The notes beneath the pieces were generated by a model, which was not told the DNA's origin, did no database searches, and saw nothing but the letters and a program-made list of their open reading frames with translations. From contig JACAEQ010000023.1 of the NCBI GenBank assembly GCA_013388755.1, positions 1 through 42,367 on the forward strand: DNA of 42,367 nt, in the 5' to 3' direction. The stretch's first letter is position 1. Each line of letters starts with the position of its first letter. The stretch comes from Chloroflexota bacterium. Its GTDB lineage: Bacteria; Chloroflexota; Chloroflexia; Chloroflexales; Roseiflexaceae. Of the stretch, positions 12,439 to 18,512 are shown in pieces. The translations under genes and the position numbers were made by a program.

Positions 12439-12987
12439 CTATTCTATCGCGATGCCGATCTGTGCCAGTGCAGTTGATGCAACGCCATTGACGCGCATCG
12501 CTGCCATGCGCTGCCGGATATAGTCATGATCGAGTGTCTGACGGCGCGCGATACTGCTCGCGTCGGCAATGTCATGCTTGCCCTCTTCGATGCCGCGCCC
12601 CAGTAATGCCTTGTGCAGCACGATATCTTCTGGTGGCAGCACTGGCACCAGCGATCCAAGCAAGGGGAGCCGCCGCAACCTGCTGCGCATCGCATCATCG
12701 AATACAAATGGATAGACCTCGCGGCCGCGTCTGATGGTCAGATCATCGAAGATTTTGATGCCCCGCCAGAGAATGCGCTGCCCATCGAACTGCACGACCT
12801 TTTGTTGCTCCTGTAACAGACGAACAACGTCCGGAAGCTTCCCCGACTCAACCAGAATGTCAACGTCCTGGATCGGGCGCCGGTTCCCGTACAGATGCGC
12901 GGCTGCGCCGGCACAGACTGCCCAGGTAAACTGTTGCGCGTCGAGTGTGCGCTGTACGACGCCAAGATTGCCTGCAATCAGAGACAT
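12439..12987 (-). CDS. Nucleotidyltransferase-like protein
   Basis: This is a 182-residue protein. Its N-terminal part, WAVCAGAAAHLYGNRRP followed by QDVDIL, fits the GG/GS...DxD pattern of nucleotidyltransferase-fold proteins (pol-beta superfamily, AbiEii/MNT-like). A later PPEDIVLHKALLGRG block matches the EDl-hK motif common in that group. The target is unknown: these proteins may be tRNA/nucleotide-modifying enzymes or antitoxin-type toxins. No partner antitoxin is adjacent. The start is uncertain: ATG 12987 is used, with an in-frame GTG at 13023. A promoter at 13048-13076 would start transcription near 13041 and allow either. Confidence 0.6.
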   Translation of the reverse strand: MSLIAGNLGVVQRTLDAQQFTWAVCAGAAAHLYGNRRPIQDVDILVESGKLPDVVRLLQEQQKVVQFDGQRILWRGIKIFDDLTIRRGREVYPFVFDDAMRSRLRRLPLLGSLVPVLPPEDIVLHKALLGRGIEEGKHDIADASSIARRQTLDHDYIRQRMAAMRVNGVASTALAQIGIAIE

Positions 12988-13101: not shown

Positions 13102-13719
13102 TCACCCACACCGGCTGATCATCGCGCGGCGTCTGGCCCATTCCTCGCGGCCAAGTTGCATTTCGTAGAACTCAACCTTCAGGCCGCGTGGGTCTTCGCG
13201 GAAATAGCGGCGGAGCTGCGCATACTTCGGCAGTTCAAGGATGTGGCGGTCGAAGAGTGAACCGGCGTCGCGCCAGTCGCTATCCACATACCTGAAACCA
13301 AGCCGCGTATAGCAGCGAACGGCGCGCTGATTTGGCGCCGCGACGTCGAGGACCATCATGCGGTACTGGAGCGATTCGAAGTAGTACTCGAGAAACAGGG
13401 TGAGCGCCTCGGTACCAAGGCCGCGACCGACATATGGTGCGCCAAAGGTGACACCAAGACGCGCCTGACTGCGCCGTTCGTCAATCTCGCGCAAGGAAAT
13501 GCGCCCGATCAGCGTGCCATCGTGTTGTTCAACCGCCCAGCTCCGTCGTTGTATCCCATTCTCGAATATGCTGCTCCACATCTCCGGGCCGAATGACAGC
13601 CTTCGCGGCAGGTTCCACAGTGGATCCAGCGGGTCATTGTAGGGCGGCCATGCGTCGGCCAGTTCATCGTCGTGGCGCTCCCACGCTCGAATGATGACAC
13701 GCGTGCCATACAACTCCAT
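13102..13719 (-). CDS. GNAT family N-acetyltransferase (RimJ/RimL-like)
   Basis: This is a 205-residue GNAT protein that should transfer an acetyl group from acetyl-CoA to an amine. The acceptor cannot be read from sequence. The order is typical: N-terminal VIIRAWERHDDELADAW, then LIGRISLREIDERRSQARLGV (beta strands 2-4), the acetyl-CoA pyrophosphate loop GRGLGTEAL, and the C-terminal NQRAVRCYTRLGFRYV. The start is ATG 13719 with an AGGAG site 8 nt upstream. It lies downstream of the two sirtuins on the same strand, separated by repeat R2c. A link between acetyltransferase and deacylases is tempting, but the repeat makes a shared transcript uncertain. Confidence 0.85.
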   Translation of the reverse strand: MELYGTRVIIRAWERHDDELADAWPPYNDPLDPLWNLPRRLSFGPEMWSSIFENGIQRRSWAVEQHDGTLIGRISLREIDERRSQARLGVTFGAPYVGRGLGTEALTLFLEYYFESLQYRMMVLDVAAPNQRAVRCYTRLGFRYVDSDWRDAGSLFDRHILELPKYAQLRRYFREDPRGLKVEFYEMQLGREEWARRRAMISRCG

Positions 13720-13740
13720 CGAGGGTCTCCTGATCCAGGG

Positions 13741-13884
13741 CTAGAACCAATCCCTGTCAGATACGCCCGTCACCCACCCCGGCCCTCCCCTGCTGGAGAG
13801 GAGTCCGACCTCCAGCGGCGGGAGGTTGGGCGGGGGGCCGTGCGGTGCGTCAAGCCGTATGTGCAAGGTATTGGAGTTAGAACG
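13741..13884 (+). repeat. R2 family interspersed repeat, copy c
   Basis: The ends resemble short inverted termini: CCAAT at 13747-13751 against ATTGG at 13870-13874. The interior has a GC-rich inverted segment (GGCCCTCCCCTGCTGGAG...CCTCCAGCGGCGGGAGG) followed by GTGCGGTGCGTCAAGCC and GTGCAAGGTATTGG. It is inserted between the degenerate sirtuin gene, whose last codons it overlaps or touches, and the GNAT gene. Confidence 0.65.
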
Positions 13885-14656
13885 CGTCTGCCTGCAGTTC
13901 TTCCAGGCCACCAACATCACCAGCAATGAGCTTCACCAGTTCAGGCATAATGACGCCTGGCGTTGTAGGAACGACGTAGTCGGCCATCAGCGTGTAGATC
14001 GACTCATCGGGAGCGATGGTCAGGACGAATGCGCCACTGCGCCGGGCAACAAACGGAAACGATGCAATCGGCTCGATCGCGCCCACGGATCCGGCACACA
14101 TGAACACGTCGCACTGCTCTACGGCCAGACGGGCCCGGCGTAACTCGCTATGCGGCAGCCCTTCGCCAAACATGACGACGTCTGGACGGAGCAGGCTGCC
14201 GCACTGGGTGCAGTGCGGCGGGATCTCACCGTCATCCTCCCAGGTAAGCGCGATGTGGCCTGCCTCGAAGCAACGACTGCGCCGCAGGCTACCGTTTAAC
14301 TCGATCAGGTCGCGTGAGCCGGCGCGCCAGTGTAGCCCGTCGATCGTCTGGGTAATCAGGGTAAAGGCAGGATAATACTGCTCGAGATGCACCAGCGCGT
14401 AGTGCGTGGCGCCTGGCTGCGCCTTCTCCGCCAGGCCGCGACGGTAATCGTACCATTCCCAGACCAGCCGTGGATTGCGCACGAATGCCTGTGGCGTCGC
14501 CAGTTCACTGACATCATACTGCGCCCATTTGCCGGTATGTGCTGCGCCAAATGATGGTACGCCACTCTCTGCTGCGACGCCGCCGCCGGTAAGGACGACG
14601 ATGCGCCGGGCGTCGATCAGGCGGTGAAGAACATGATCGGGCAGCGTGAATGTCAT
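13877..14656 (-). CDS. Degenerate Sir2-family paralogue lacking the catalytic His
   Basis: This 259-residue protein aligns along its length with the neighbouring sirtuin, but its active site is altered. The NAD loop reads LTGGGVAAESGVPSFG instead of GAG...FR (Arg to Gly37). TQNVDG becomes TQTIDG (Asn to Thr104). The catalytic ELHGN becomes ELNGS (His to Asn121), and GTS becomes AGS. The fold seems kept: C129, C149 and C152 of the zinc region, LRPDVVMFGE, and the class III WYDYRR pair Tyr69/Arg72 remain. It is therefore probably not a deacylase. It may bind NAD or acyl groups or regulate its neighbour (inference). It starts at ATG 14656, 52 nt after the upstream sirtuin, and is likely co-transcribed. 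Confidence 0.85.
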   Translation of the reverse strand: MTFTLPDHVLHRLIDARRIVVLTGGGVAAESGVPSFGAAHTGKWAQYDVSELATPQAFVRNPRLVWEWYDYRRGLAEKAQPGATHYALVHLEQYYPAFTLITQTIDGLHWRAGSRDLIELNGSLRRSRCFEAGHIALTWEDDGEIPPHCTQCGSLLRPDVVMFGEGLPHSELRRARLAVEQCDVFMCAGSVGAIEPIASFPFVARRSGAFVLTIAPDESIYTLMADYVVPTTPGVIMPELVKLIAGDVGGLEELQADAF

Positions 14657-14707
14657 CGCGACTCTCCTCAGTGCGCAAGGCGTTGCACTGGTGTATGGCG
14701 GCGCTCG

Positions 14708-15466
14708 TCAGCCGATTGACGATCGCTCGCCAAATGCGGCAACGACGAGCGCCGGCAGCAATGTTCCAGACGGGCCGTAGAGATGAAGATTCAACTGGCC
14801 GGCCAGCGCGCCTGGCGCGAGGTTGATCTCTACGGTGTATGCGCCGTCAGCCTGCGCTATCAGGGGCAAATCGGCAGCCGGGCGTACCACTCCCGACGTG
14901 CCAATACACAGGAAGAGCGAGCATCGCCGGGTTGCTGCCAGCGCCATGTTCCATGCGTGTTGTGGCAAAAGCTCGCCGAACCAGACGACATCGGGGCGAA
15001 TCAAGCCGCCACAGCGTGGGCAGCGCGGCGGGGCATCCTTTGCGACAATCGTCACTTCGACGGGGGCACCATCATCGGAGCACCGATAACGGGTCAGGTT
15101 CCCATGCAATTCTACCACGTTCCGGCTTCCAGCGCGGTGATGCAACCCGTCAACATTCTGGGTGATCAGCGTGGTGTCCGGTATGTGCTGTTCCAGTTCG
15201 GCCAGTGCGTAATGCCCGGGGTTGGGCGCTGCAGCCTCGGCCAGGGCCCGGCGATAGGCATACCATTGCCACACCAGCACCGGGTTGGCGCGGAATGCAG
15301 CAGGTGACGCCAGTTCTGCAGGATCGTAGCGCGCCCAGAGGCCTGTTTGAGCATCGCGAAATGTCGGCATGCCGCTCTCTGCCGACACGCCGGCGCCGGT
15401 AAGGATGGCAACGCTCTGCGCGGCACGCAGGCGCTCGATCAACTCCGAAGGGAACGTGACGGTCAT
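14708..15466 (-). CDS. cobB: NAD-dependent protein deacylase, class III sirtuin (CobB/SIRT5-like)
   Basis: Sirtuins remove lysine acyl groups using NAD. The 252-residue product has GAGVSAESGMPTFRD (residues 24-38), TQNVDGLH (102-109) with Asn104/Asp106, and catalytic His121 in ELHGN. Tyr69 and Arg72 in WYAYRR are the pair that favours succinyl/malonyl-lysine in class III enzymes. The zinc site keeps C129, C149 and C152, but the usual second Cys of the first pair is not obvious. ATG 15466 follows the pseudokinase stop with one base between them (TAACATG), so translation is probably coupled. An upstream in-frame extension to 15595 lies inside the pseudokinase gene and is rejected. Confidence 0.9.
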   Translation of the reverse strand: MTVTFPSELIERLRAAQSVAILTGAGVSAESGMPTFRDAQTGLWARYDPAELASPAAFRANPVLVWQWYAYRRALAEAAAPNPGHYALAELEQHIPDTTLITQNVDGLHHRAGSRNVVELHGNLTRYRCSDDGAPVEVTIVAKDAPPRCPRCGGLIRPDVVWFGELLPQHAWNMALAATRRCSLFLCIGTSGVVRPAADLPLIAQADGAYTVEINLAPGALAGQLNLHLYGPSGTLLPALVVAAFGERSSIG

Positions 15467-15467
15467 G

Positions 15468-16850
15468 TTACTCGGCGCGGACATAATACTGCGATACCCA
15501 TCCTTCAACCTGCTGGCCGTTGATCTCACTCCGTACCAGCACCCATGGAACATCGTCAACGATACGCGGTCCATCAAGCTTGCGCACGCGGGCACCGTTG
15601 GGCAGCAGCCCGATCACCTGCGAGCCCAGGCCCGGCCCATTGCGCAGGTTCAGCCCTTCCACGTCGCCGATCGTCACGACCAGCACCTCGCCCGGTCCTT
15701 CGGCAACACCCGTCAGCCAGCCAGGGAGGGACAGGCCGGTGGGTGCCGGAATGTCGGGCCGTGGCAGGCGGATGCTGGTCAGACCCTCAAACGCCAGGCT
15801 GGCGAGCAGATAAGCGCCACCACCTACGGCAATGAACAGCGCCAGCATGGAGATCAACGTGATCAGCGAGCGCTGTTGAGTGCCACGAACAGGGTGGCGA
15901 TCCACCTCCGGTTCGGTTGTGGTTGGCGGGCGAGGCGGCGCGATCTGTTGTACCGGCGCCAGTTGCTCACCGGGAGGAGCGCCGGTGGATTGCGCGGTCG
16001 GTGGCGACCGTGGCGGTGATGACGCGAGGCGATCGGTGTCGCCGCTGATGGCCCGCCGCAGGTCGTCGAGCGCCTGGCCCAGCGCTGCGGCATCGGCAAA
16101 ACGCCGCGACGGGTCGTAGGCGACCGAGCGCGCGATCAGGCGCGCCAGCGATGGCATGAACAACTGGGGCTGAATCTCGGCAAGCGTCGGAGGGATGGAA
16201 CTCAGATGCGCACGAGCGATGGCCGCCGCGTCCGTTCCGGTGAACACCTGGCGGCCACTGATCATCTCAATCAGCAGCAGGCCCAGCGAATAGACCACGC
16301 TGGCCGCGGTTGCAGGATGGCCGGCAGTACGCTCGGGGGCACGGTAACAGGCAGAGTCGACACCAAGCTCTGTGGATGTCATCATCCAGTTTTCCACCAG
16401 TTCGACGTGGCCATCGCCAACCAGAATGACATTCGCGCTGCTGATCGGCGGGTGCGGCGCGCCGGCAGCCTGACAGACGGCGATCGCGGCGACAATCTGG
16501 CGAAAATAGAGCAGAGCCTCTTCGATGGCAATCGGCCCGATCTCGCGTAGTGTTCGCCCGGCGACATACTCCGTAATCATGAATGGCCGCCCGGCGATCT
16601 CGCCGCTATCATAGATCCGCAGCAACGATGGATGGGCCCGACGGGCGCCCAGTTGCGCCTCAGTGATGAATCGCTGGCGTAATGACGCCTGGTTCAGCAG
16701 TTCTTTCCGCAACAGGTGCACGAGCACACGACGCTCCAGGCGTTCGTCATATGCCCGGTAGACGGCGGTCAGGCGCGTGGTGCCAAGCCGCTCTTCGATG
16801 CGATAGCGGCCATGCAGGATCGGCTCCGAGAGCGAGGGAGACTCGGCCAT
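15468..16850 (-). CDS. Membrane-anchored pseudokinase with C-terminal SH3-like domain
   Basis: This 460-residue protein has a Ser/Thr protein kinase fold (residues ~14-270), a low-complexity Pro-rich linker, one membrane helix (~328-352) and a C-terminal SH3b-like domain (~385-460, LNLRNGPGLGSQVIG...VEGWVSQYYV). The kinase part keeps helix C Glu64, Asn140, APE171-173 and YSLG. The VAIK lysine is His45, the HRD aspartate is Pro135 with Ser at the HRDxK lysine, and DFG reads E153-N-W. It is therefore most likely catalytically dead and acts as a scaffold or sensor. The SH3 part should be extracytoplasmic and could bind cell wall. It is the first gene of the unit with the two sirtuins, behind a promoter at 16883-16911. 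Confidence 0.85.
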   Translation of the reverse strand: MAESPSLSEPILHGRYRIEERLGTTRLTAVYRAYDERLERRVLVHLLRKELLNQASLRQRFITEAQLGARRAHPSLLRIYDSGEIAGRPFMITEYVAGRTLREIGPIAIEEALLYFRQIVAAIAVCQAAGAPHPPISSANVILVGDGHVELVENWMMTSTELGVDSACYRAPERTAGHPATAASVVYSLGLLLIEMISGRQVFTGTDAAAIARAHLSSIPPTLAEIQPQLFMPSLARLIARSVAYDPSRRFADAAALGQALDDLRRAISGDTDRLASSPPRSPPTAQSTGAPPGEQLAPVQQIAPPRPPTTTEPEVDRHPVRGTQQRSLITLISMLALFIAVGGGAYLLASLAFEGLTSIRLPRPDIPAPTGLSLPGWLTGVAEGPGEVLVVTIGDVEGLNLRNGPGLGSQVIGLLPNGARVRKLDGPRIVDDVPWVLVRSEINGQQVEGWVSQYYVRAE

Positions 16851-16882
16851 AGTGGCATGCGTAGCAGTTGATCGTGCCAGCG

Positions 16883-16911
16883 ATTATAGCACCCGGCGCG
16901 TGCTGCCGCAA
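16883..16911 (-). promoter_or_regulatory. Promoter of the pseudokinase-sirtuin unit
   Basis: On the minus strand TTGCGG (16906-16911) and a perfect TATAAT (16883-16888) are spaced by 17 bp. Initiation near 16876 would leave a leader of about 26 nt. Confidence 0.7.
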
Positions 16912-17060: not shown

Positions 17061-17117
17061 AATCTGTGATACAATGCTCGTGATTACGTATTGATATATA
17101 TACTCAGGAGTCTCGAC

Positions 17118-18512
17118 ATGGCGACACGTATCCTTGCTCTGGCAGTTGTTGGCGTGCTTATGCTGGCCGGCTGTGGTGGCAGCCAGCCGGCACCGGCAAT
17201 GCCCGCCGGTGGTACCACGCCGCTTAAGGTCATTGCCGCCGAGTCGTTTCTGGCCGACATTGCGCAGAATGTTGCCGGCGACCGGCTGGTGATTGATTCG
17301 CTTATCCCCACCGGCGTTGATCCACATGGCTTTGAACCGACGCCTGCCGATGTGCGCAAAGTGGCCGAGAGTGACGTGCTGATTGTGAATGGCGCCGGAT
17401 TTGAAGCGTTTCTCAGCAAATTGCTGGCCAATGCAGGTGGCGAGCGCCTGGTGATCGAGGCGGCGGCTGGCCTGGCAAGTCGTGCCGCGCGTGAGGGCGA
17501 AACGGCGGTTATGAGTGATACGGAGCTGGCGGAAGCCTTATGCGCCGAGGCCAGTGAACTCTCCGCAGCGCAGATTACCGCCGGCGATGCGGCAGCGGCG
17601 CCTGAACTCAACGCGCATGGCGCCGAAGACGCCGGCCACGCAACTGAAGAACATGGCGACGAGCATGGCGCCACCCTCTGGAGCGTCACCCTGGCGCAAC
17701 AGGCCGGCGGTCGCTATGCAGGCTTCCTGAAACTGGATGCCGAGGGGGGCGAGGTTGCGATCGCCACGAGTGGCGGTGCCCTGACCGTAACACGCGGCGC
17801 TGATCAGACGCCGGTGGGTATTGAAAAGACCCTCCCTCTCGATTGCGCCGGGTTAACTCAGGCCGCGATTCTCGATCTGGAGAGCGACGAATATCTGATC
17901 GCACTCAAGGACTTTGCGGCGTCGCAGGCGACCCTGATGATGGGTTCGCCCGGCGGGCACCACCACGACGAAGGCGATCCGCATTTCTGGCTCGATCCGG
18001 CCAGGGTGATCACCTATGTTGAGAATATTCGCGACGGTCTGATTGCCGCTGATCCGCCGGGTGCTGAGACATACCGCGCCAATGCTGAGCGCTATATCGC
18101 ACAACTGAACGATCTCGATCGGGCGATCGCCGCCGACGTGGCGCAGATTCCTGCTGCCGATCGGCAACTGGTGACGAACCACGAGAGCTTTGGCTACTAT
18201 GCCGATCGCTATGGTTTTCGCATTATCGGAACAATTGTCCCGAGCGTCAGCAGCGGTGCATCACCATCGGCGCAACAACTCGCCCGCCTGACCGAGCGTG
18301 TACGCGCGACAGGTGCGAAGGCGATCTTTCTTGAGACTGGTGCCAACCCGCAACTTGCCGAGCAACTGGCGCGTGAGACCGGCATCCAGGTTATCTCCGA
18401 TCTGTATACGCATTCACTTTCTGCACCAGATGGTCCGGCGCCGACATATCTGGCCATGATGCGTTACAATACACAACGTATCGTAGAGGGGCTCACAGCC
18501 GCCCAGCGGTGA
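17118..18512 (+). CDS. znuA: Zinc/manganese ABC transporter substrate-binding lipoprotein with inserted domain
   Basis: This is a cluster A-I binding protein for Zn or Mn uptake, anchored as a lipoprotein (signal peptide with LAGC, Cys19). The N-lobe has the ligand motif DPHGFEP and the C-lobe DPHFWLDP, TNHESFGYYADRYGF and ETGANPQLAEQLA. At 464 residues it is longer than the usual ~300. Between the lobes a segment of ~130-140 residues (about 136-270) is inserted. It starts with a His/Glu-rich stretch (HGAEDAGHATEEHGDEHG), continues as a small beta-rich domain I do not recognise, and ends at a HHHDEGDPH motif. ATG 17118 is chosen because AGGAG sits 7 nt upstream. The metal choice (Zn rather than Mn) is inferred from the His-rich segments. 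Confidence 0.9.
   Translation: MATRILALAVVGVLMLAGCGGSQPAPAMPAGGTTPLKVIAAESFLADIAQNVAGDRLVIDSLIPTGVDPHGFEPTPADVRKVAESDVLIVNGAGFEAFLSKLLANAGGERLVIEAAAGLASRAAREGETAVMSDTELAEALCAEASELSAAQITAGDAAAAPELNAHGAEDAGHATEEHGDEHGATLWSVTLAQQAGGRYAGFLKLDAEGGEVAIATSGGALTVTRGADQTPVGIEKTLPLDCAGLTQAAILDLESDEYLIALKDFAASQATLMMGSPGGHHHDEGDPHFWLDPARVITYVENIRDGLIAADPPGAETYRANAERYIAQLNDLDRAIAADVAQIPAADRQLVTNHESFGYYADRYGFRIIGTIVPSVSSGASPSAQQLARLTERVRATGAKAIFLETGANPQLAEQLARETGIQVISDLYTHSLSAPDGPAPTYLAMMRYNTQRIVEGLTAAQR

Follow-up and report, generated by a model that had tools for sequence, protein, structure and literature searches.

The window analyzed here is a 42,367-nt stretch of a Chloroflexota genome of the Roseiflexaceae (assembly GCA_013388755.1, contig JACAEQ010000023.1, positions 1 to 42,367), taken at its full length. 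Open reading frame and Pfam analysis of the window revealed five genes in tandem on the minus strand, encoding a membrane pseudokinase (K, 460 aa, 15468..16850), an intact class III-type sirtuin (A, 252 aa, 14708..15466), a pseudo-sirtuin that has lost residues of the NAD site and retained those of the acyl pocket (B, 259 aa, 13877..14656), a GNAT acetyltransferase (13102..13719) and a putative nucleotidyltransferase (NT, 12439..12987). A single base lies between the stop codon of K and the start codon of A (TAA C ATG), and the gaps between A and B and between B and the GNAT gene are 51 nt and 157 nt, respectively. An earlier reading, made from the sequence alone, had described positions 13877-16911 as an operon of a membrane pseudokinase, a sirtuin and a dead sirtuin. 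The description, gene order, domain calls and spacing (TAACATG at the K/A junction and 51 nt between the sirtuins) agreed with our results. Its upstream end did not, as K starts at 16850, and the three-gene unit, although indeed a conserved cluster, was drawn too small, since the GNAT gene is a common partner in two families.

The receptor-like pseudokinase K

K matched the Pfam families Pkinase (1.9e-18) and, at residues 399-457 (15480..15656, minus strand), SH3_3 (1.5e-9). The AlphaFold2 model of K showed a PknB-like kinase fold, a helix at residues 324-358 and a C-terminal beta domain (mean predicted local distance difference test score, pLDDT, 84.8), and a fold search aligned it to PknB with a VIA-align Z of 27.9 and a root-mean-square deviation of 2.5 over 248 residues. 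A hydrophobic run in the sequence, matching the modeled helix, marks a predicted transmembrane segment at residues ~329-352 (15795..15866, minus strand), so that K has the predicted layout of a receptor, with an inner kinase domain, a transmembrane segment and an outer sensor domain. SH3_3 scored above the Pfam cut-off in the window K and one orthologue from the genus g8, and below it in the other four orthologues tested, in which the C-terminal region following the helix was also present.

K lacks the three residues that mark an active Ser/Thr kinase, namely the beta3 Lys, the HRD Asp and the DFG Asp. In alignment with PknA, the beta3 Lys is replaced by His (VLVHLL), HRDxKxxN by HPPISSAN and DFG by ENW; the HPPISS motif, residues 133-138 (16437..16454, minus strand), stands at the HRDxK position. 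None of 39 orthologues has the beta3 Lys (His, Asn, Ala or Tyr instead; one further row is a gap), and the HRD Asp is absent from all 40, with Pro or Met in its place. The DFG Asp is retained in 4 of the 40 and is Glu in this genome. The substitutes are themselves conserved as HPPISS and (E/D)xW, with P134 and S138 invariant and P135, S137 and W155 found in at least 90% of the 40 orthologues. Since the Lys and the HRD Asp are uniformly gone while HPPISS and (E/D)xW are conserved, the predicted inactivity of K is ancestral, reaching back to the base of the Chloroflexales, and the site is still constrained. Displacement of the kinase residues to nearby sites, which was to have overturned the sequence-only reading, was ruled out, because the substitutions are in register against both PknA and the 40 orthologues. 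The earlier picture of K as a kinase-fold protein without the VAIK Lys, HRD Asp and DFG Asp, with a transmembrane helix and an outside SH3-like domain, was thus confirmed by alignment, model and Pfam match, its topology being a prediction.

The sirtuin pair and its evolution

A retains GAGxS, TQNxD, ELHGN with the catalytic His, GTS and the YxxR acyl pocket, which are the motifs of class III (CobB/SIRT5-type) sirtuins. It has three of the four usual Zn cysteines, the second being gone (RCSDDG); the same cysteine is likewise missing in many otherwise intact-looking sirtuins related to A. B shares 46% identity with A across 249 aligned residues, and its motifs at the corresponding sites read GGG, TQT, ELNGS and SVG. 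Asn121 (codon 14294..14296, minus strand) takes the place of the catalytic His and Thr104 that of the TQN Asn, so that B falls outside the class III deacylases. Both calls of the earlier reading therefore stood: A appears to be an intact class III deacylase by its NAD, catalytic and YxxR motifs, one Zn cysteine aside, and B is a paralogue without the catalytic His.

We compared B across the families of the order, labeled f1 to f4 (inferred names: f1, Roseiflexaceae, including the window genome; f3, Herpetosiphonaceae; f4, Chloroflexaceae with Oscillochloris and Chloroflexus). In all 25 B sequences of f1, the catalytic His is changed to Asn and the TQN Asn to Thr, Ser or Ala. Sites fixed in 16 intact sirtuins and gone in f1 B include A25, N104, H121, T190, S191 and N215, and the losses lie mostly within the NAD-binding and catalytic motifs GAG, TQN, ELHG, GTS and IN. 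Y69, R72, V160, V161, G164 and E165, positions that line the acyl-lysine/peptide site of sirtuins, stay in at least 90% of B sequences. AlphaFold2 gave B a confident sirtuin fold (pLDDT 91.9), with Sir2Af1 as the closest match in the fold search.

Between the window genome and its sister genus, identity was highest for B (81-83%), followed by A (77-78%), GNAT (71-75%) and K (61-64%). The ratio of nonsynonymous to synonymous substitution rates (dN/dS) over all pairs stood at ~0.05-0.10 (B), 0.06-0.18 (A), 0.08-0.23 (GNAT) and 0.12-0.32 (K), with dS near saturation in the wider pairs and a simpler method as a possible fallback of the script. Because of its low dN/dS and high identity, B is a constrained protein under stronger purifying selection than A, and not a decaying copy. 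In f2 the operonic sirtuin appears to have an intact catalytic site, as it does in most of the f4 genera possessing one. In f3, B has Ala for the TQN Asn, has lost Zn cysteines and retains the His, and in one f4 genome, G058, both the His and the Asn are gone. A whole-genome PF02146 search found B to be the sole sirtuin in 13 of 13 genomes examined from the genera g3 and g8 (nine of them 90-98% complete), where the module consists of K, dead B and GNAT only. Since g3 and g8 keep K-B-GNAT without any other sirtuin, B is more than a regulator of A and functions without A in these genera.

The K and GNAT trees broadly track the families, in line with mainly vertical inheritance of both genes; the two g3 sequences stray in both trees. 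The sirtuin tree carries a long-branch warning. Two independent insertions of an intact sirtuin next to the dead one, as suggested by one tree, were dropped as a conclusion, because joining the A sequences of the window lineage with those of the Herpetosiphon-like genomes was not rejected by the approximately unbiased (AU) test (p 0.475). An origin of A and B by recent tandem duplication was disfavored, although not formally rejected (p 0.058). The K and GNAT of G058 group with f4, a placement that is also possible for its sirtuin (p 0.449); the change from His to Asn there is likely a second, independent loss.

Distribution and gene neighborhood in the Chloroflexales

At E <= 1e-45, 74 of the 82 listed Chloroflexales genomes have K, nearly always as a single copy. 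Outside the order, the two class-level matches read at this threshold were ordinary active kinases with VAIK/VAVK, HRD and DFG, a phylum-level match (G236) being left out. Of 47 loci that carry K and another module gene on one stretch, 40 have a sirtuin directly after K, in genera of four families; many Chloroflexus- and Oscillochloris-type genomes have K without an adjoining sirtuin. The linkage of K with a sirtuin is not chance, since K is present in 74 of 82 genomes and stands before a sirtuin in 40 of 47 loci from four families. The loci were picked partly via sirtuin matches, and the following counts of gene orders are not frequencies. With S as the operonic sirtuin, K-S-GNAT was found in 16 genomes, and in one more (G005) with a broken K frame, K-S-GNAT-NT in 4 and K-S in 7. 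K-A-B was limited to the window genome and its sister genus, with K-A-B-GNAT-NT in 6 genomes including the window (K being cut by the contig end in G017); a seventh genome has A-B-GNAT-NT on a short contig. Six Herpetosiphon-like genomes have K-B-A, seven genomes K-GNAT(-NT) without a sirtuin, and four S-GNAT(-NT) without an adjoining K, which is relocated or off the contig. K and S are thus linked in each of the families f1 to f4, and linkage with GNAT is seen in two of them, f1 and f4. Along the linked loci the identity to the window K falls to 33%, and the outer flanking genes vary between genera. These gene orders rule out a triad private to this genome, the finding that would have undone the proposed cluster of an inactive receptor-like kinase, an intact sirtuin and an inactive sirtuin; the linkage is order-wide, and the cluster is old and conserved in the filamentous Chloroflexales.

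The GNAT protein matched Acetyltransf_3 (2.3e-18), and its acetyl-CoA loop, (R/Q)xxGxG/A, is intact as GRGLGTEA in the window and of the same type in nearly all of 38 GNATs. NT, often found after GNAT, has a weak PF14907 match, and its start was placed at the ATG that agrees with the orthologues. The 157-nt gap between B and GNAT in the window (13720-13876) contains GC-rich, near-palindromic sequence; in the sister genus the gap is only ~20 nt long. The B and GNAT genes of g2, g5 and g7 are separated by a gene for a DUF402 protein (L032:4031-4573, L037:4278-4814, L035:4562-5083; Pfam-tested for g2 and of the same cluster elsewhere), and these genera also have a zinc-ribbon Ser/Thr kinase with intact VKEM, YRDMKPSN and DFG, divergent from B. 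A PF01553 acyltransferase follows the operonic sirtuin in f2 (L054:4004-4741). Directly upstream of K, Herpetosiphon-like and Oscillochloris-type genomes have a membrane-anchored class I methyltransferase (L055:3974-4690, L105:3896-4732), and in G005 K is broken into two reading frames that overlap (L036:1287-2947), through a sequencing error or as a decaying copy, with the adjoining B and GNAT frames open. Upstream of K in the window, a divergent gene (17091-18512) encodes a ZnuA-type metal-binding protein, whose Pfam match in two stretches suggests an inserted region in between.

A possible protein-acylation control module

These data led us to prefer, tentatively and at somewhat below an even chance, the hypothesis that the genes form an order-wide protein-acylation control module of the Chloroflexales, with K as receptor-scaffold, GNAT, a sirtuin, and B as reader or adaptor. 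The hypothesis builds on computed gene content, linkage, residue losses, selection and the lack of any other sirtuin in two genera; from these we infer complex formation, sensing, acyl-lysine binding by B, and a client. K would be a PknB-like receptor in which phosphate transfer has been lost; the outer SH3 domain would sense the envelope, and the inner pseudokinase domain would serve as a conformational scaffold that holds or controls the GNAT acyltransferase (writer) and the sirtuin. The ancestral operonic sirtuin probably had deacylase activity and served as the eraser, as its counterparts in f2 and several f4 genera would still do. In f1 it would have become B, which, because its NAD chemistry is lost while its fold and acyl-lysine-pocket residues are kept, is probably a non-catalytic acyl-lysine reader or adaptor linking K, GNAT and an acylated client. 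In the window genome and the sister genus, A, between K and B, would supply the eraser. In a bolder form, which we regard as unlikely, the pseudokinase receptor relays an envelope signal through an acyl-mark-reading pseudo-sirtuin to GNAT, and B would be the first bacterial reader made from a sirtuin.

Several points weigh against the control-module hypothesis. The parts are separable: K-S occurs without a nearby GNAT in f2 and f3, K-GNAT without S in Chloroflexus- and Oscillochloris-type genomes, and in G001 and G006 (f1) K lies away from B-GNAT. The GNAT is of a type with N-terminal and small-molecule acetyltransferases among its members, so that its target need not be a lysine, and the NAD-site and acyl-pocket roles of single B residues are taken from established knowledge of sirtuins. 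K also retains the near-invariant R26 and R48, which might permit unusual nucleotide binding.

One possible alternative, proposed in the sequence-only reading, is that A is the sole active NAD-dependent enzyme and that K and B, both inactive, regulate it, for example through a B-A heterodimer. It would explain why K-A-B is found in the window and in five genomes of the sister genus, with A-B in a sixth, and why a degenerate and an intact sirtuin adjoin each other behind K in six Herpetosiphon-like genomes. However, B is the only sirtuin in all g3 and g8 genomes examined, every f1 genus sampled has B linked to GNAT, and the A genes of the window lineage and of the Herpetosiphon-like genomes are possibly separate insertions (AU p 0.475 for joining them); we consider this explanation improbable, and the claim that K and B exist to regulate A was not upheld. 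It is also doubtful that inherited gene order and slow rearrangement alone link K to sirtuins of unrelated function. The separation of K from S in some genera and the missing GNAT in f2 and f3 would fit such a view, but the linkage outlasts large divergence of K while the outer flanks differ, a single base separates K from A in the window, and both pseudoenzymes are under purifying selection.

Gain of new chemistry by B, as in the mono-ADP-ribosyltransferases of the SirTM type (class M), appears very unlikely. SirTMs, like B, have the catalytic His replaced and sit in operons with modification enzymes (PMC4518038). Their activity, however, requires Asn118, the TQN Asn, and they have Gln for the His (PMC4518038), whereas B has neither (T104, N121), with Thr, Ser or Ala for the Asn in all 25 f1 sequences and the GTS and IN motifs lost; no macrodomain partner was identified among the recurrent neighbors examined. 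Even less probable, and scarcely credible to us, is the anti-phage defense module that the earlier reading had considered. K matches several PADLOC defense-kinase models, mostly PD-T4-6 (best 6.6e-52), and SIR2 domains are known from several defense systems. Yet K lacks the kinase residues, scores no lower as a PknB-like protein than against these models and has a PknB-like fold; it is near-universal in the order, single-copy and mainly vertical rather than patchy; none of the PADLOC models matches A, B, GNAT or NT; and CobB-type sirtuins differ from defense NADase SIR2 domains.

Bacterial protein acylation is usually considered to be metabolite-controlled, and the proposed module would link receptor-type signaling to it; the cluster suggests a protein-acylation switch made largely of "dead" enzymes. 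Bacterial pseudokinases are common and few have a known partner, and K has a conserved set of genetic partners across an order. B, its NAD chemistry lost and yet evolving more slowly than its active neighbor A, offers a directly testable case of an eraser turned reader or adaptor. We found nothing relevant in the open-access literature on a pseudokinase-sirtuin operon, pseudokinases of Chloroflexi or pseudo-sirtuins, in agreement with the earlier statement that no described system is known to combine these parts.

Among known systems, the pseudokinase domain of MviN and the ActPs3 family (Mycobacterium) resemble K in being membrane-associated and of kinase fold with all catalytic motifs lost; as a membrane-bound scaffold in envelope control, the pseudokinase MviN recruits a protein that inhibits cell-wall synthesis (PMC12599244). 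ActPs3 is mainly actinobacterial with no sirtuin or GNAT partner described, whereas K has an outer SH3 domain and HPPISS...(E/D)xW, and the motifs differ as far as tabulated ones can be compared (VALT, Lsidhpsr and Y-- against VLVHLL, HPPISS and ENW); the words "Chlorofle-", "SH3" and "sirtuin" are not present in that review (PMC12599244). With PknB/PknA-type receptor Ser/Thr kinases, K shares the fold and the inner kinase-transmembrane-outer domain layout, but it lacks the beta3 Lys, the HRD Asp and, in the window, the DFG Asp, and has SH3_3 in place of PASTA domains. A and the ancestral operonic sirtuin are alike to CobB/SIRT5-type class III sirtuins (Sir2Af1, SIRT5), whose fold and YxxR are also found in B, although B has lost the catalytic His together with NAD-site residues such as the TQN Asn. 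The acuABC operon of Bacillus subtilis resembles the module in encoding, within one operon, a writer of the GNAT family, an eraser that is a deacetylase, and a protein proposed to regulate in trans (PMC8556138). Unlike the present module, it has a Zn-dependent eraser of the histone deacetylase (HDAC) type and an ACT/CBS regulator, with no kinase-like receptor or dead eraser (PMC8556138).

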